Source of the DNA: Poecilobothrus nobilitatus
Lineage: Eukaryota > Arthropoda > Insecta > Diptera > Dolichopodidae
DNA length: 64,000 bases
Direction: 5' to 3'
Assembly (NCBI GenBank): GCA_947095535.1
Contig: OX352774.1
Location: 69,068,416 to 69,132,415 of the forward strand
In this document: piece after piece, positions 7,078-54,711 of the stretch
Layout of the letters: the number at the start of each line of letters is the position of its first letter
How positions within the stretch are numbered: the stretch's first letter is position 1
Position numbers and translations under genes: made by a program
Notes under the pieces: generated by a model
What the model was told of the DNA's origin: nothing
Databases searched by the model: none
Seen by the model: the letters and a program-made list of their open reading frames with translations, nothing else

Positions 7078-7290
7078 AACTTACTGACTCAATATTTCAG
7101 CTGCCATTAAACGGCTTGACTGAGAGAATTGAAGTTAATCAAAGAAAGTCTATGGCGGAAATCTTTTTACGACGGAAGATGTATCAGATCAGCCCAAAGT
7201 TTCATATGAAGAAGTTGATGCCAAGGTATTAACTAACCATAAATTTTTAAACATTCTCTACAAAATTTTTTCTTACTCTTTCCCTTTTCC
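7078..7290 (+). other. Exon-like island, possible coding exon or TE relic
   Basis: A stretch of clearly more complex composition follows a good 3' splice-site context: branch-like TTACTGAC, then ATATTTCAG ending at 7100. One frame is open from 7078 to 7228 and includes the segment RKSMAEIFLRRKMYQ. A second frame is open from about 7136 and includes GGNLFTTEDVSDQPKVSYEE, which looks the more protein-like of the two. A possible donor (AAG then GTATTA at 7226) is weak. If spliced, the exon would be 125 nt (7101-7225). I do not recognise the protein. Because two overlapping frames both look open, this may be a frameshifted transposon remnant rather than a host exon. Confidence 0.3.
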
Positions 7291-9249
7291 TAATTCATTA
7301 CAGATTTTAAAGTTGGAAATAACAATAAATTATAAATTTTACTTTATTCAAGGGCTTATTAATACTGTAACATTTTCTAATGATAGGAACTAAACAGGTA
7401 AAATTGAAGTAGGAACTAAAAATATTGTCTAAACTTCATTTTAATTTTCTATAAAAATTTCAATAAGTTCGCCCAAATTTTTTGAGGACTTTTCCAAAAA
7501 AAAATTTAAGCATTATGTTATTAGATCAACTCATATAATATTTAAATAAATAACTGGGGAAACTATTAGAGTTTCAAATAATAGAATATTAACATAACAT
7601 CTCTAAGGTTTTACCACGGTTCAATAATTTTTTTTTTTTTTTTTTTACACAGTTAAAAAAAAACAATTTAAACATTTTTTCAATTTTGTTAACACAAGGT
7701 CGTTTCTTATACATTCTATATTTACATGCATTATACAGACATACAGACATATATAGAAAAATGATTTTAAATATTTTAACACTAGATATCTAATATTTGA
7801 TTATTTTAGGTAATGTAACACTATATATAATAACTAATAATTGTTTTGAAATAGTTAAAGTTTAAAAAAAAAAAAAAAAATTTAAAAGGTGTGGCCATTT
7901 TTATAATGATTTTGAATTAATACCAGTAACTATTATTAAATATAAATTGAGTAATTTTTATGTTAAAGCTCTTAATTTGAGATTTATTTTGATGAATATA
8001 TAATATATGATATTATATAATATGTATGTAGATATATATAAAGTGCATTGAAAAAGTAAAAGTAAATACAATCATAAGTTACTAATATATTATATTAGCA
8101 TTGTAAATGTCATATGTATGGTTTAGTTTCGATTGGAATTTAAATATTAAAAATGAAATTCTGGGCATTGCAAAATGCACAAAAAAAAAAACAATTATTT
8201 TCTATCACTTTTAATTTTAAGGGTTCAAGTATTTTTCTGACATTTGAAAAAGTATTCGGTATTACTTGAAGAAGTTGAAGCTCCATAGTAGGCGAGAGGC
8301 CTAACCTTTTTATCATAGACCTTCTTCATAAAATAAGTTTTTGTCAATTGCAAATACAACGCTTTGCAAATTTAACATTTGAAAATAAATAACCTTTTAC
8401 CGGTAAATTGAAATTTGCAAAATGGCTTTTTTGGAAAACGGCCTTTTAAAGAAATATATTTTTGCAATTTTGATTAAGTTTAATTCCTACCCCTTCCCAA
8501 CCAGATATAGCACTACACAAAAATATAGTTCTTCCACAAGGACATATTATTAATTACAGATTTATTTACTTTAAACTGTGTAGAAATTTTTTGAACAGAG
8601 ACGAGAATATATGTATGATGTATAGACAAAATTAAACAATTTGCCATATATTTCTATAACGTATTTTTTTTTTTGCAAATGTACTAAAAAACGGCATAAC
8701 AAAAGTACAAATAAAATAAAAATAAAAAAAAAAAGATAATTGCAGATAATTCTATAGATAGATTCTAGATTATTTTCTTTTTTTTTTTTTTGTTATTCTT
8801 CTCCACGTCACGTTTTCGATTAAAATTATAGGCGAGTATCTTACAGGTTTTTTTTTTTCTTTTTTACATTGTTAAAAGGTATATTTTCTTAATCATTATT
8901 TAAATCTAAATATTTGCAGTATATAACGATAAATAAATTGTTTGTTTATTTTTGATAATAATTATTTGTTTAAATTACAATTGAAAAAAAAAAAACAAAA
9001 CAAATGAAAAAAAAAAATTAAAATATTTCAAAAGCACTCATTCAAATTAAACTTTAAGATAAAGTCTAATAAATTCATATCCTCTCATGTTCTATAATGT
9101 TATTTATAAAATAAAGCAATAATTTTGTAAGTTTAGTTATTGATTATAGTATGTATTGTTTTATATTGTCATATTAAATTTTTAAAACCGTGTGATATAT
9201 TAAAATGCAAAGTAACCTGCAATAGATGGGAATTATTATGGGAGTTTGC
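7291..9249. other. A+T-rich non-coding sequence
   Basis: No gene or element recognised. There are several long T- and A-runs (7628-7646, 7864-7880, 8777-8791). The stretch 8220-8500 is slightly more complex but shows no open frame or repeat partner in the window. Confidence 0.55.
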
Positions 9250-9421
9250 AGGGAACATTATTTAACCAAGCAAAGAACTTTTACAAGTGGCGTGGCTGTA
9301 AAAGTCGTAAGGGGGGAATAACTCTACGACGTGTATGGGATTCGAACCGACACTACCTCGGTGTTTCCAGTATAATGTGGGGTTTTATACGCTCTTACCC
9401 ACTAAGCCACCGATGCCCCAA
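9250..9421 (-). mobile_element. tRNA-derived SINE, family 1, with intact A and B boxes
   Basis: On the minus strand the head starts GGGGCATCGG, followed by an A box TGGCTTAGTGGG (9398-9409) and a perfect B box GGTTCGAATCC (9338-9348). These are the internal Pol III promoter elements of a tRNA-derived gene. After the B box comes a conserved block that can fold back on itself, related to GTCGTAAG...CTTACGAC in the other copies, then GCCACGCCAC. The A-to-B distance is longer than in an ordinary tRNA, so this is not a functional tRNA. Four further copies of the family lie in the large inverted repeat at 39399-44714. This copy has the best-preserved promoter boxes. Confidence 0.75.
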
Positions 9422-31117: not shown

Positions 31118-31396
31118 CCACAGACTAAATATATTATACAGACGAACAGTTTCATATAAAAATTTTAAGTCTTTTTTAGGAGCCAGTAGGAACATTTTTT
31201 TGGAGCCAGACTAAGTATTTTAGATATTTAAATAGCAAAAATAAAAATTTATAGAATATTCTTTTGTTTCTATTTTTGTAATTTAAATATTGTAAAATAC
31301 TTAGTCTAGCTCCATAAATTGCTTAGTCTGGCTCCAAAAGAAAACTAAAAATTTTTATATGAAACTGACCATCTGTATAGTTTATTTAGTCTGTGG
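31118..31396. mobile_element. Fold-back MITE, 279 bp with long inverted arms
   Basis: The left end reads CCACAGACTAAATA and the right end is its reverse complement. The arms continue matching through CAGTTTCATATAAAAATTTT. Further in, each arm carries two copies of a GGAGCCAGACTAAG-type subrepeat, and AGTATTTTA with an ATTTAAAT block lies near the centre (about 31257). Arm length is roughly 125 bp with scattered mismatches. There is no coding capacity and no sure target-site duplication, though both flanks carry ATGTTAAGA. It would form a strong hairpin. Confidence 0.75.
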
Positions 31397-39398: not shown

Positions 39399-40564
39399 TA
39401 AAAAGTTACCTTTAAAAAAAACATTAAATAAAAAAATACAAGTATGTACTTACGTACATATATGTGTGTATATTTCATTACCATCATTTATCTATCAAAA
39501 TAAAATAATAAAGATTTCTCAGAATTACTGAATTAAAAGTTCAATGAAATTTAAGATACGACTTGTTTTTTTTTTTTTTGTTTTTATTTCATTGTCACTA
39601 TTATGTCACATTAATTAATTAAACCACCCACCTGCATATATGATCACGAACAATAATGCAACGGAATTTTTTTTTTGGTTTTTAATATTTCAGAAAATAT
39701 AAAAATGAAAAAAAAAAAACATTTCTTGATTTATACATAAACGCCCTTAAAAAGAAATTGATATCATCTATAATTTAATCACAATTTCATTAAAATTTTC
39801 AAACTTATCTTAAATGTTTTACTGTTATTATCTTAATGTAATTCATTTGTCTTTTTCAATCAATCATTTACCTTTATATACTGATATACAGAAATATATG
39901 TATACATACATATATGTATATGTATATTGAAAATATAACTGAAAATTAATAGAAAGATATATACATATTAGCTAATTACTTTATTTCAATCGTGTCAGCC
40001 ATTTAAAAGATAACTTTCTTTTTTTTTTTGTTTTTTTTTTTTTATATTTAAAATATGTCGCACGAAATAAAGACAAGTTTCAATAAGTTTTCTTTTAAAA
40101 TTAAATACCATTAATAATTTTCAAATTGAATAAATCAAGTAAAAACCAACAACCTAAGATTATTTCGCAAATTAACAACATCAAAATGTAATTTTGCAAT
40201 TGATGCGCTAATTTATTGAAATTTACAGCAATCGCTAATTAAAATTTAGTAGAAACAACACAATTTTATTTATTTATTTTTTTTTTTGATCTGTTAAGAT
40301 ACGAATTAAAAGATAGTTTTGTTTTCTTGTTTTTTTTTTTGATTTTGTTATTATTTTAATTTGCCTAATAAATTGTAATTTACATTTATCTCTTTTATTT
40401 ATACATGATATTGCATTTAAACCGCTGTTTTGTTTTTCTATTATTTTTAAATTGCCTGCAATTTAGTTTTATATATTGATGTGTTACGTCTCCTTTTATA
40501 TGGTTACAACGAATTGATCTACTGTGTAAATCGAGGAATGAATATTGATATATATTTTATTTAT

Positions 40565-40735
40565 TCCCCTGCCACAGAAATGTGACAAGAAAATTTCACA
40601 GACGTACCTCTCCAGGTATGGTTGTAAATTCCTTAAGGGGGAATTATTCTTACGACGTGCGGGGAATTCGAACCTACACTCCCTTGGTGTTTACAACTTA
40701 TTTTATACGCTCCTATCTAATCAAATTTAGTTTAA
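40565..40735 (-). mobile_element. SINE family 1 copy, left arm, outer
   Basis: On the minus strand it reads GAGCGTATAAAATAAG, then a B box GGTTCGAATTCC, then the conserved GCACGTCGTAAG...CCCCCTTAAGG block, and ends near CACATTTCTGTGGCAGGGG. The A-box part is decayed (TGATTAGATAGGAGCG). The open frames over it are chance. Just upstream, 40774-40811 is a hairpin with 10-bp stems (CAATAAGGGG). Its loop, GGCATCGATGATCTAGTG, looks like a SINE head in the opposite orientation. Confidence 0.7.
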
Positions 40736-41820
40736 ATTCTTTAGATTTTTATTTATTTTTTTTGTACCTTCATCAATAAGGGGGGCATCGATGATCTAGT
40801 GCCCCTTATTGTTATATGAAAGTATCAGAAAAAAAAATAAAAATTTAAACAACTTTAATTTGGTTTTTAAAAGATGGAATCGCTTTTTTAAATAATCATA
40901 ATAAATCTTTAAATCAATGTTTTTTATTATTTTTGAAGAATAGTGATTTTATTTAATAGTTTTACCGTTTTACATTTTAAAAAAAAATCTTACCTAATAT
41001 TTTTCAAGTGGCCTTTTAAATTTTTTTTTTTTTTGGATTTTTAAACCATGTATGTATATCTAAAAGTGAAACCATCCGTACTGTAAGTCTGCAAATTAAA
41101 TTTATAATACAATAACTAAAGTAATTTTGAAACATATATGTACATATCTACTTTAATTTGTTTTAAAATTATACATATATATATGTGGAAAAAATGAGTA
41201 TAATATATAGGTAATGGATCAAGCCTATCAAACATTTTTAATTGATCTATAAGATACTTTATTGGTATATATATATTAAATTGTAAATATATAATTTTAT
41301 GAAATAACTATTCAATATAGTATCTTAAGTTTTTTTTAGTAGTTATACAATATAATATCAGTTTTTGTTAATTCAATTAATTTCGGTCGAATAGATTTTC
41401 ACGTTTTATCTATATATTATAATACCTAATAAAAAACTACATTTTTATCGAAAATTCAAACCTAGTGTTTTGTTTCGAAAAGAAAAGAAAACGCGTTTAA
41501 TTGTTTAAAGTCCAACACTATATAGGTATATATTATATGAGAAAAAGTTTTTTAGTGCTCATCTTATTTTGTGTCTTTCGAAAATCTTCTTTGTCCTAGC
41601 AAAACAAAAAAATCTAGTTAAAATGCATACCGCAAAGAAGACAAAAATCATTTTCAGAGTCTTGTATTTCAGAAAGTTTTAAATTGATATGAGAAAATTT
41701 TTTAGTTGCAGACATAAGACCTTTTCATAAACATCCTATATGACTATGCAATAGTCAAAACCACACATTTATAAACTACTGTAACTTTAGCTGAAATTTC
41801 ATAAACCAAAAATTTAAATC

Positions 41821-41989
41821 ATGGGGACTCGGTGGCCTAGTGGGTATAAGAGCGTATAAAATACGCTGTAAACACCGAGGGGATGTGGATTTGCATTCCA
41901 CACACGTCGTAAGAGTTATTCCCCCTTACGACATTTACAGCCACGCCTGAAAAGGAAAGGCTGTGTAATTTTGTTGTTACATTTATGTG
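41821..41989 (+). mobile_element. SINE family 1 copy, left arm, inner
   Basis: The head GGGGACTCGG is followed by an A box TGGCCTAGTGGG (41833-41844), a degraded B box GGATTTGCATTCC, and a perfect 8-bp stem GTCGTAAG/CTTACGAC. It then runs through GCCACGCCTGAAAAGG to ACATTTATGTG. The arm identity ends exactly here: the mirror copy continues GCAGGGAAATGC while this one continues TATTTATTTATT. The inverted-repeat breakpoint therefore lies inside the SINE tail. Confidence 0.75.
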
Positions 41990-42123
41990 TATTTATTTAT
42001 TTAGGCAGTTCTTAAGTAAACAAAAAAAAATTAAACACACGAAAAAAAATATGCATTCACAGCATTACGTTTCACGGTTGCATGGCATAATTATATTTTT
42101 TTTGTTTTGGTGCATTTCCCTGC
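41990..42123. other. 134-bp spacer of the inverted repeat
   Basis: Unique sequence between the arms. Its right part continues the SINE tail of the right arm (GCAGGG read on the minus strand). Its left part does not match any SINE tail in the window. Confidence 0.85.
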
Positions 42124-42292
42124 CACATAAATGTAACAACAAAATTACACAGCCTTTCCTTTTCAGGCGTGGCTGTAAATGTCGTAAGGGGGAATAACTC
42201 TTACGACGTGTGTGGAATGCAAATCCACATCCCCTCGGTGTTTACAGCGTATTTTATACGCTCTTATACCCACTAGGCCACCGAGTCCCCAT
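42124..42292 (-). mobile_element. SINE family 1 copy, right arm, inner
   Basis: Exact reverse-complement counterpart of 41821-41989, but its tail continues past the arm boundary into GCAGGGAAATG, matching the GTGGCAGGGG tail of the outer copy. It therefore looks like the more complete member of the pair. Confidence 0.75.
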
Positions 42293-43377
42293 GATTTAAA
42301 TTTTTGGTTTATGAAATTTCAGCTAAAGTTACAGTAGTTTATAAATGTGTGGTTTTGACTATTGCATAGTCATATAGGATGTTTATGAAAAGGTCTTATG
42401 TCTGCAACTAAAAAATTTTCTCATATCAATTTAAAACTTTCTGAAATACAAGACTCTGAAAATGATTTTTGTCTTCTTTGCGGTATGCATTTTAACTAGA
42501 TTTTTTTGTTTTGCTAGGACAAAGAAGATTTTCGAAAGACACAAAATAAGATGAGCACTAAAAAACTTTTTCTCATATAATATATACCTATATAGTGTTG
42601 GACTTTAAACAATTAAACGCGTTTTCTTTTCTTTTCGAAACAAAACACTAGGTTTGAATTTTCGATAAAAATGTAGTTTTTTATTAGGTATTATAATATA
42701 TAGATAAAACGTGAAAATCTATTCGACCGAAATTAATTGAATTAACAAAAACTGATATTATATTGTATAACTACTAAAAAAAACTTAAGATACTATATTG
42801 AATAGTTATTTCATAAAATTATATATTTACAATTTAATATATATATACCAATAAAGTATCTTATAGATCAATTAAAAATGTTTGATAGGCTTGATCCATT
42901 ACCTATATATTATACTCATTTTTTCCACATATATATATGTATAATTTTAAAACAAATTAAAGTAGATATGTACATATATGTTTCAAAATTACTTTAGTTA
43001 TTGTATTATAAATTTAATTTGCAGACTTACAGTACGGATGGTTTCACTTTTAGATATACATACATGGTTTAAAAATCCAAAAAAAAAAAAAATTTAAAAG
43101 GCCACTTGAAAAATATTAGGTAAGATTTTTTTTTAAAATGTAAAACGGTAAAACTATTAAATAAAATCACTATTCTTCAAAAATAATAAAAAACATTGAT
43201 TTAAAGATTTATTATGATTATTTAAAAAAGCGATTCCATCTTTTAAAAACCAAATTAAAGTTGTTTAAATTTTTATTTTTTTTTCTGATACTTTCATATA
43301 ACAATAAGGGGCACTAGATCATCGATGCCCCCCTTATTGATGAAGGTACAAAAAAAATAAATAAAAATCTAAAGAAT

Positions 43378-43548
43378 TTAAACTAAATTTGATTAGATAG
43401 GAGCGTATAAAATAAGTTGTAAACACCAAGGGAGTGTAGGTTCGAATTCCCCGCACGTCGTAAGAATAATTCCCCCTTAAGGAATTTACAACCATACCTG
43501 GAGAGGTACGTCTGTGAAATTTTCTTGTCACATTTCTGTGGCAGGGGA
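43378..43548 (+). mobile_element. SINE family 1 copy, right arm, outer
   Basis: Mirror copy of 40565-40735, with the B box GGTTCGAATTCC on the + strand and the same decayed A box. Confidence 0.7.
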
Positions 43549-44714
43549 ATAAATAAAATATATATCAATATTCATTCCTCGATTTACACAGTAGATCAAT
43601 TCGTTGTAACCATATAAAAGGAGACGTAACACATCAATATATAAAACTAAATTGCAGGCAATTTAAAAATAATAGAAAAACAAAACAGCGGTTTAAATGC
43701 AATATCATGTATAAATAAAAGAGATAAATGTAAATTACAATTTATTAGGCAAATTAAAATAATAACAAAATCAAAAAAAAAAACAAGAAAACAAAACTAT
43801 CTTTTAATTCGTATCTTAACAGATCAAAAAAAAAAATAAATAAATAAAATTGTGTTGTTTCTACTAAATTTTAATTAGCGATTGCTGTAAATTTCAATAA
43901 ATTAGCGCATCAATTGCAAAATTACATTTTGATGTTGTTAATTTGCGAAATAATCTTAGGTTGTTGGTTTTTACTTGATTTATTCAATTTGAAAATTATT
44001 AATGGTATTTAATTTTAAAAGAAAACTTATTGAAACTTGTCTTTATTTCGTGCGACATATTTTAAATATAAAAAAAAAAAAACAAAAAAAAAAAGAAAGT
44101 TATCTTTTAAATGGCTGACACGATTGAAATAAAGTAATTAGCTAATATGTATATATCTTTCTATTAATTTTCAGTTATATTTTCAATATACATATACATA
44201 TATGTATGTATACATATATTTCTGTATATCAGTATATAAAGGTAAATGATTGATTGAAAAAGACAAATGAATTACATTAAGATAATAACAGTAAAACATT
44301 TAAGATAAGTTTGAAAATTTTAATGAAATTGTGATTAAATTATAGATGATATCAATTTCTTTTTAAGGGCGTTTATGTATAAATCAAGAAATGTTTTTTT
44401 TTTTTCATTTTTATATTTTCTGAAATATTAAAAACCAAAAAAAAAATTCCGTTGCATTATTGTTCGTGATCATATATGCAGGTGGGTGGTTTAATTAATT
44501 AATGTGACATAATAGTGACAATGAAATAAAAACAAAAAAAAAAAAAACAAGTCGTATCTTAAATTTCATTGAACTTTTAATTCAGTAATTCTGAGAAATC
44601 TTTATTATTTTATTTTGATAGATAAATGATGGTAATGAAATATACACACATATATGTACGTAAGTACATACTTGTATTTTTTTATTTAATGTTTTTTTTA
44701 AAGGTAACTTTTTA

Positions 44715-45240
44715 ATAGATATATATAGATATATATATATAGATTGTCAGTAGCAGTGTCATTATTTAAATTTTTTTTCAAAATTGTTCATAATTTTCAT
44801 AAACAACGGCTGTCAAAAATGATATGATTGCCCTGTGATTATAGTCTTACTACAAAAATGAATCACCATATCGTGAAATTTCGCTGTTATAGGATGTTTA
44901 TGAAAAGGCCTATAAGTATACAATACTTTAAAACCTTTATATACTGGGTGTCCGAAACTCAAAGGTCACGAAGAAGGAGGTGATAGGGAAGTTCATAACA
45001 AGGAAAAAATTATTCTAGAGGGGGGAATTTCTAACGGTTTCTGAGATAACAGCCTTCAAAGTAATTTTGTTAACTTTTTAAAGAAGCAACAACATTTTTG
45101 CCCCTGTATGATATAGAACGTTCGTTTAAGTGTCGGCAGCTAGCTAAAATTATGATTTTTCACATTAATATTCGAACTTTTATTTACCTTTCATAATTGA
45201 AGAGTTACAAGGTTTTAATTATGAAAAATATTGATAATTG
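44715..45240. mobile_element. Fragments of one or more DNA transposons
   Basis: TATAGGATGTTTATGAAAAGG at 44888-44908 is a third exact copy of a 21-bp block that also occurs in each arm of the inverted repeat (42373-42393 and its mirror at 41720-41740). At about 44945, TACTGGGTGTCCGAAACTC followed by GAGATAACAGCCTTCAAAG looks like one terminus of a DNA transposon. I found no opposite end. Confidence 0.35.
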
Positions 45241-46211
45241 TCACTGTTTTTATAAAATAACTGTAATTTTTGCATAAAAAACCGGAATTGGTGTATCAAT
45301 TTTATTTCATTTTCAAAATCACCAATTCCTCAGCTTCAATTTAAGTTAAAACATTTTTCTCTTATCTATATAAGTATCTCTTATCTATATTTATGTATAA
45401 TTGGTCATAAGTTCCATGGAATTCTTATCTCTATTTCAATCGAACTTAAACTCATTTAAAACTGTACTTCACTTCTATGAAACTTAAGTCCATTTATGTG
45501 GATACAAGCTTCATGACAGTTAAATCATCCCACTCTAAAAGATACATCCATTTACAAAAAAAATAATTGTAAATATTTTAATCCTTAATTTTAATTTTTG
45601 TTTTTATTGGTATAACATTTATCTGCTTTATCTCATTTAATCTACCGTAATTTAATAAATATTACAAAAGTCAAGTTTTACTCTTATTTCCAACAAAACT
45701 CTATTTAAGACTCTATATAAGACACATCTAAAAAGCATACAAAAACTACTGCAGATTAAAAATCAAAAACCATTAACAAAGTTAATTTATGTTAACTAAA
45801 TAAAATATTAAGCCTTGATAATTTATTAGTTTAAATAAAACTTTAAATTTAGTTTTTAACTTTAATATTATTTTAGTGTTAATTAAATTTCAGGTTTTTA
45901 CTTTAATTTTAAAGATACCTTATTGAGTATCTTAATAAATTTAATACTAAAATAGATTTTAAAAGTAAATTAAAAGGGGGAGAAATTAAACTCTTATTAC
46001 ATAAGTACACATGTATGTATATATAATATGTACTTATTTACATACATATTTAAAAATTGACAATAATTATATAATATAAACAATAAAAAAGTTTTTGATT
46101 TATTTTATATTTTTAATCCATAAGTATATACTGCTAATTAAATCTAAATATAAATTAAGTTATTGTCAGCTCTAAAATCATTTGCAAATTTAAAAAAAAA
46201 AATCATGTTAT
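45241..46211. other. A+T-rich non-coding sequence
   Basis: No gene recognised. Confidence 0.55.
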
Positions 46212-52054: not shown

Positions 52055-52524
52055 TTGAAAGATTTTTTCACCTTCTCATCCATTTCGAAAAATGACTGTG
52101 GTAACAAATTTGTTGTTTTTTGTCCCATGAAATCTAAGCATTTGACATTGTCCCTTAAGAAGGCATTTGAGACGATCTGGTTATATGGAATCATTTTCAA
52201 AATGCGAATCATATCATTAATTATATCATTAAATATTTGGTTTACTTAATTAATGATATGATTTGCGACAAAAATCTTTAAAGTCACTTCATTCAATCAG
52301 AAGTGCTCTAAAGAGTTTGTAATAGTAAACGGCTTACAACAAGATGCAGTTAACTCTCCAATTCCATTTAACATTTTTATAAGCAAACTACTGGATTCTC
52401 TAAACAGAAGTTTAGGGTACAATCACAGTATCGCATTTGCGGATGATTTAACAATCTATATCGCTAATAGAAATACCGCAAACAAATACCGTTACCGTTT
52501 ACAAATAAAAGTTAAGGTATTTTA
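52055..52524 (+). pseudogene. Reverse transcriptase domain fragment of a Jockey-type retrotransposon
   Basis: One + frame carries the central palm of a non-LTR reverse transcriptase. Motif A is at about 52151-52180 (SLKKAFETIWLYGIIFKM), then the segment SKEFVIVNGLQQDAVNSPI (52307-52363), then FNIFISKLLDSL, and motif C as FADD (52436-52447). Only two stops (52247-52249 and 52259-52261) interrupt the whole stretch and there is no frameshift, so this relic is younger than the others here. In motif A the catalytic Asp is replaced (SLKKAFE where DLEKAFD is expected), so it would be inactive even without the stops. Endonuclease and C-terminal domains are absent nearby. Confidence 0.85.
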
Positions 52525-54598: not shown

Positions 54599-54711
54599 GG
54601 ATGAATCTCCTAACTGCTAGAACAGGATATTGACTTTGTAGGAGTAGGGAGTAGGGATGAATCTCGTAACTGCTAGAACAGTATATTGACTTTGTAGGAG
54701 TAGGGTAGAGA
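54599..54711. repeat. 56-bp tandem duplication
   Basis: Two copies of a 56-bp unit (begins GGATGAATCTC, contains TAACTGCTAGAACAG and TTGACTTTGTAGGAGTAGGG) with very few differences. Confidence 0.9.

Follow-up and report, generated by a model that had tools for sequence, protein, structure and literature searches.

A perfect 2.6-kb inverted duplication in the fly Poecilobothrus nobilitatus, probably recent, and its ancestral order as rebuilt from nested mobile elements

Inverted duplications and related rearrangements have been described in several systems. Human fold-back inverted duplications place two inverted copies about a short single-copy ('disomic') spacer, as at the locus described below (PMC3907307). 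In that series the duplications reach at least 41.7 Mb and are described as ending in a telomere or a translocated chromosome, and the 21 sequenced junctions have spacers of 766-70,466 bp, 13 of them with inverted microhomology of 2-8 bp, 3 with longer repeat homology and 5 with insertions (PMC3907307). Two of three wild-type inverted duplications in yeast made use of an inverted repeat of 5 bp whose spacer was 35 bp long (PMC10622511). Replication template-switch mutations likewise yield a reverse-complement copy, via brief replication along another strand (PMC8794818), and the small inverted triplications of yeast rad27 mutants and of cancers, which also contain an inverted copy with short spacers, have been ascribed to a misaligned 3' flap in replication (PMC13334657). 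Drosophila hairpin-RNA (hpRNA) loci are inverted repeats too; they are evolutionarily young and some are nearly perfect, and the arms of one are homologous to a transposable element (PMC10317233). Here we describe a 5.3-kb inverted repeat in Poecilobothrus nobilitatus (Diptera; Dolichopodidae), which lies in a stretch of 64,000 nucleotides (hereafter the window; contig OX352774.1, here C8, positions 69068416-69132415) of a 943.8-Mb assembly in 84 contigs (GCA_947095535.1). Judged from the sequence, it is probably (at roughly 0.85) a recent inverted duplication of a locus whose ancestral order was left flank (L) - arm - segment t - right flank (R).

The arms (left, 39399-41989; right, 42124-44714) are each 2591 bp long and surround a spacer of 134 bp (41990-42123). 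The first-pass annotation of the window had reported identical inverted arms of 2.6 kb around a 134-bp spacer, with unchanged poly-A/T runs, and had named a base-by-base alignment of the arms as a check. That description proves exact: the arms are perfect reverse complements, with 0 mismatches over 2591 positions, paired positions add up to 84113, and each arm carries 8 homopolymer runs of at least 10 bp, the longest being 14 bp, all of which are equal between the arms. Identity stops abruptly at the same base pair on both sides, the end-anchored similarity score being 0 for the outer flanks beyond the arms and 0 for the two ends of the spacer. A chance origin of the identity is out of the question. 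Both the arms and the window are AT-rich (GC of 24% and 23.5%, respectively). Sampling contig C1 at even intervals in 20 stretches of 10 kb, a total of 200 kb out of 944 Mb, gave no comparable inverted repeat, and the longest self-complementary match there spanned 286 bp at 82%; this small sample says only that such palindromes are not common in the C1 stretches sampled.

A search of the genome with the whole arm returned two full-length places, the arms themselves, together with many matches to a short interspersed element (SINE) (40 scored of 6283 candidates). Arm part 39399-40540 also had two full places, its remaining matches being 91 bp or shorter (25 of 25 candidates scored), and part 40745-41815, which ends in a dispersed repeat about 100 bp long, likewise had two full places (40 scored of 62 candidates). 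The search skips simple repeats, and these copy-number statements apply to the words searched. Outside dispersed repeats the duplicated sequence appears otherwise single-copy. No third copy of the arm lies within 30000-55000, and the two full places are the total genome-wide among the candidates scored. Inverted triplications keep a DUP/INV/DUP arrangement of three copies and two spacers (PMC13334657), whereas here the third copy is absent from 30000-55000, and that candidate was rejected on this ground. What is present is a reverse-complement copy adjoining its source with a spacer between them, the arrangement of an inverted duplication.

The order that preceded the duplication can be read from two mobile elements that cross its boundaries. 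One is a SINE, which we take to be of tRNA type from promoter-like boxes, and which has matches genome-wide. Its left-arm copy (41821-41989, plus strand) is broken before the 3' end, at the point where ATTTATGTG meets TATTTATTTATT (starting TATTTA); all six of the other copies inspected (L003-L008, read by eye) go on with GGC instead. The right-arm copy (42090-42292, minus strand) has an intact 3' end and runs on into the spacer as GGCAGGGAAATGCACC (reverse strand) with an A-rich tail, and such a 3' end and tail are carried, in their own versions, by 6 of 6 of the other copies. Since the intact 3' end crosses from the right arm into the spacer, spacer and right arm are contiguous, and 41989/41990 is therefore a new junction. 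A second SINE of the same family, about 80% identical, lies inside the arm on the opposite strand (40563-40716, minus strand; mirror at 43397-43550), and a further partial copy, about 79% identical, was seen at 9289-9420.

The other element is about 430 bp long, has terminal inverted repeats and is split among arm, spacer and right flank; we call it a miniature inverted-repeat transposable element (MITE), a name given from its size and ends rather than by a classification run. Its 5' part, with the terminal repeat (AGACCTTTTCATAAACATCC...), occupies 41717-41820 on the plus strand of the left arm, with a mirror at 42293-42396 in the right arm, and has at least 38 further matches in the genome (40 candidates scored). 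Its 3' part lies in the right flank, in original orientation (44715-44911, plus strand), and consists of an AT-rich microsatellite (44715-44741), a body and a terminal inverted repeat from 44889. The 20-mer ATAGGATGTTTATGAAAAGG is found exactly in this 3' part and, inverted, in the left arm. The SINE lies inside the MITE, flanked by AAAATTTAAATCAT and AAAATATAATTATG, which by reading, unscored, look like its decayed target-site duplication; no clean target-site duplication of the MITE itself was recognisable. A plus-oriented MITE end in R belongs with a plus-oriented MITE start, which is that of the left arm, and it is this fit that points to the left arm, joined to the left flank, as standing in its ancestral place and orientation. 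An opposite polarity with the right arm as the original, drawn at first from the SINE alone, was overturned by the MITE end in the right flank.

The join between arm, spacer and right flank was compared with the MITE family, using 21 of the 38 listed copies (L034 and 20 more), all picked by their match to the arm part. The order in the family is the arm part, a middle ending in CCTAAATAAATAAATA, a short AT microsatellite, TTGTCAGTAGCAGTG, the body and the inverted terminal repeat. When one best BLAST match was kept per copy and piece, the spacer part matched 19 of the 21 copies, inverted, and the best match of the right-flank part lay downstream on the same strand in 13. A motif search placed the right-flank motif 16-48 bp downstream in 14 of the 18 copies with the middle motif (in L049, still counted among the 18, the middle motif is a chance match at an odd position); in the rebuilt element of the window the two motifs are 31 bp apart by hand count. 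With the SINE omitted, the left-arm part, the reverse-complemented spacer (less the first 31 bases of that complement) and the right-flank part (44715-44925) join into one piece of 435 bp, and 364 of its positions agree with the majority among 15 copies (arm part 98/121, spacer part 90/103, right-flank part 176/211). The six copies omitted from this alignment were L034, L035, L036, L049 and L052, where the right-flank part was not found, and L047, despite its right-flank motif. Twenty of the fetched stretches reach only about 400 bp beyond the first part of the MITE, so that 3' terminal repeats are visible in no more than 8 of the 21 copies. The pieces are collinear only with the spacer turned round.

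On this evidence segment t, holding the SINE 3' end and tail and the MITE middle, would have lain between the arm and R, and the spacer (minus strand) would be its reverse complement, inverted relative to both the left arm and the right flank. The right arm (minus strand) would be the inverted copy. With rc for reverse complement, the locus now reads L - arm - rc(arm + t) - R: the 2725 bp of spacer plus right arm are exactly the reverse complement of the left arm and t. That equality follows because the arms are identical; what the MITE contributes is that R was joined to t. The present sequence is derivable from the one ancestral order by switch points alone, with two new junctions. The first (N1, 41989/41990) joins the broken SINE of the left arm to the far end of the inverted spacer with 0 bp of microhomology, and the second (N2, 44714/44715) joins the outer end of the right arm to the MITE microsatellite of the right flank with 2 bp (TA); the exact ancestor at the microsatellite is uncertain by a few bp. 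Both junctions have one side at the t/R point, which is the AT-rich microsatellite whose length varies among MITE copies.

Several points weigh against this reading. In 8 of the 21 MITE copies the best BLAST match of the right-flank part was not downstream: in four it lay elsewhere (on the opposite strand, in the terminal repeat or at another place) and in four there was none, although three of the eight (L046, L047, L051) do carry the right-flank motif by motif search. The left-flank control also matched one of the 21 copies (40 bp, in L045). That the junction between L and the arm is ancestral is the simplest assumption, and both the reality and the frequency of the allele rest on one assembly. 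As to the mechanism, microhomology of 0 and 2 bp means that the junctions themselves give no pointer to fold-back priming, and the three routes set out below give one and the same product and are inseparable here.

The best reading of the mechanism is a templated inverted duplication, by a template switch, a fusion of sister ends, or a fold-back followed by a flip of the spacer. A MITE, struck by the SINE long before, would have spanned the arm, t and R. The event could have begun at the t/R boundary, where a fork stalled or the DNA broke in the AT-rich microsatellite of the MITE. The repairing strand would then have turned back and copied t and the arm from the opposite strand, 2725 bp in all, before joining R again at this microsatellite or at most a few bases away, for a net gain of 2591 bp and two new junctions. 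In a four-point template switch, the strand would depart at 41989, resume at the end of t, proceed backwards as far as 39399 and from there go back to R. Alternatively, a break at the microsatellite may have been followed by fusion of the two sister ends, one of them trimmed 134 bp further, after which a second break 2.6 kb further along would have been joined to R. In the remaining route, t would have formed the loop, 134 bases long, of a fold-back duplication and would later have been inverted via recombination between the identical arms. It is the inversion of the spacer that separates a simple fold-back from forward template switching or later flipping. The rebuilt order suggests that the event started at the AT-rich microsatellite of the MITE. 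By eye, the 3' part of the element seems to have been lost at or near its internal AT microsatellite in three of the 21 copies (L034, L036, L049). This microsatellite, the place of the break in the window, may be a recurrent break site.

Compared with the human series, the present duplication is small (2.6 kb) and interstitial, its spacer is shorter (134 bp) and inverted, and its junctions have 0 and 2 bp of microhomology (PMC3907307). Most of the human junctions sequenced have short inverted microhomology; N1, with 0 bp, therefore does not speak for priming by pairing. Template-switch products, inverted loop included, are described by four switch points, as here; however, that report concerns the stems of RNA genes (PMC8794818), whereas at the present locus the tract copied measures 2725 bp and the switch falls within non-coding DNA rich in AT.

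Other explanations of the structure have to be weighed. An artefact of assembly or library, with a chimeric or folded-back molecule in the consensus and a true locus of L-arm-t-R, is unlikely, even though one molecule read twice would give perfect identity, homopolymers included, and the order that it needs is the very order rebuilt here. A fold-back read would run into the reverse complement of L, but the right arm instead ends at 44714 and enters R, which is not the reverse complement of L and which carries the end of the MITE whose other parts are found in spacer and left arm. The reads behind the consensus would thus have to contain a pair of false joins at the one MITE microsatellite; such a double chimera is a conceivable source of the structure. 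Considerably less probable is that the right arm and spacer of today are the original and that the MITE piece in R comes from a second, unrelated copy. The SINE alone fits that polarity, and as the MITE is dispersed, with at least 38 matches, another copy could conceivably lie close by. However, the spacer piece ends and the R piece starts at the same internal point of the MITE, to within the length of the microsatellite; when two breakpoints were placed at random in an element of 435 bp, they came within 5 bp of each other in about 2.6% of trials, and that is before the complementary parts and matching orientation are counted. A transposable element with very long terminal inverted repeats, of the Foldback or Galileo type, has next to nothing to commend it beyond long inverted arms about a short middle. 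Such transposons are defined by multiple copies with target-site duplications. Here, each unique arm part has two full-length places among the matches found, which are the arms themselves, no target-site duplication was visible by eye at the outer arm ends, and spacer and right flank fit one pre-existing MITE. This candidate was rejected for want of other full-length copies and of a visible target-site duplication.

The remaining question is that of age. Three readings had been offered by the first-pass annotation for arms so alike. A very recent event is the best supported, because the ancestral order can be rebuilt from the MITE and the SINE, two new junctions suffice and identity ends sharply; ongoing gene conversion is not needed, and a single fold-back read does not account for the right flank. 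With zero differences, the 95% upper bounds on the age are about 580,000 to 120,000 generations at substitution rates of 1e-9 to 5e-9, and about 190,000 to 19,000 at assumed run-length mutation rates of 1e-6 to 1e-5. The absence of differences in 2591 bp is thus compatible with an age of at most a few hundred thousand generations under these substitution rates, and of fewer with the assumed homopolymer rates. Long-lived palindromes usually show decay at their boundaries and insertions and deletions between arms, which counts against conversion here, as an eroded zone is found at neither arm end. Perfect identity alone does not separate youth from conversion, since arms without differences hold no record; moreover, the spacer is inverted relative to the flanks, and recombination between arms can cause such an inversion. 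Gene conversion between arms is known for mammalian palindromes (PMC6790999), and here it could mask a greater age. An older palindrome held identical by arm-to-arm conversion, as on mammalian sex chromosomes, is nevertheless improbable, at a figure that overlaps with that of the recent duplication, as conversion concerns age and not origin. The sharp arm ends argue for youth without proving it.

The first-pass annotation had also suggested that the repeat, if real and transcribed, would give one of the longest possible intronic hairpins; this is not borne out, no exon having been established in the window. An exon-like stretch at 7104-7196 has acceptor- and donor-like ends and open frames by eye, and the overlapping open reading frame (ORF) 7139-7390 has no Pfam match. 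A tRNA scan of the window was empty and no Rfam match reached the gathering threshold in it. A Pfam search of 6 translated ORFs of the window matched only 52262-52522, a reverse-transcriptase fragment (RVT_1, E 7.9e-9) and LINE-like (long interspersed nuclear element) retroelement remnant. Elsewhere in the window, a further element of about 280 bp at 31118-31396 is also self-complementary, at 81% along its length, and seems to be a different MITE; an element of similar size at L024:1383-1665 has no BLAST match to it. To the right of the MITE, 44940-45360 is another dispersed repeat, which occurs twice in L004 in opposite orientations (1045-1468 and 2137-1979), and a 56-bp unit forms a tandem pair, 91% identical, at 54599-54710. 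Outside the window, contig C84 (17390 bp) carries in its first 9000 bases frames that we take to be, from first to last, ND2, COX1, COX2, ATP6 and COX3, which is the usual insect mitochondrial order.

Drosophila hpRNA loci are recognised by transcription and Dcr-2-dependent siRNAs (PMC10317233). If transcribed, the present locus would resemble them. That it is a newborn hairpin-RNA locus, or, more mildly, that its spacer has already been flipped by arm recombination and is polymorphic in orientation, is very doubtful. If it were transcribed through, the perfect stem of 2591 bp would be a long Dicer-2 substrate, and the two SINE copies and the first part of the MITE in the arms could yield small RNAs against those families from birth. 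Were the spacer polymorphic in orientation, the locus would be a live reporter of palindrome recombination.

Taken together, these data describe a mutation product that can be explained without any selected function. To learn the ancestral state of an inverted duplication, a second genome is usually required. At this locus the SINE nested in the MITE serves as a built-in ruler, from which the order before the event, the junctions and the orientation of the pieces can be inferred within one assembly. The case would be a cleanly resolved example of an ordinary type of mutation, and the same approach could be applied to other young palindromes.

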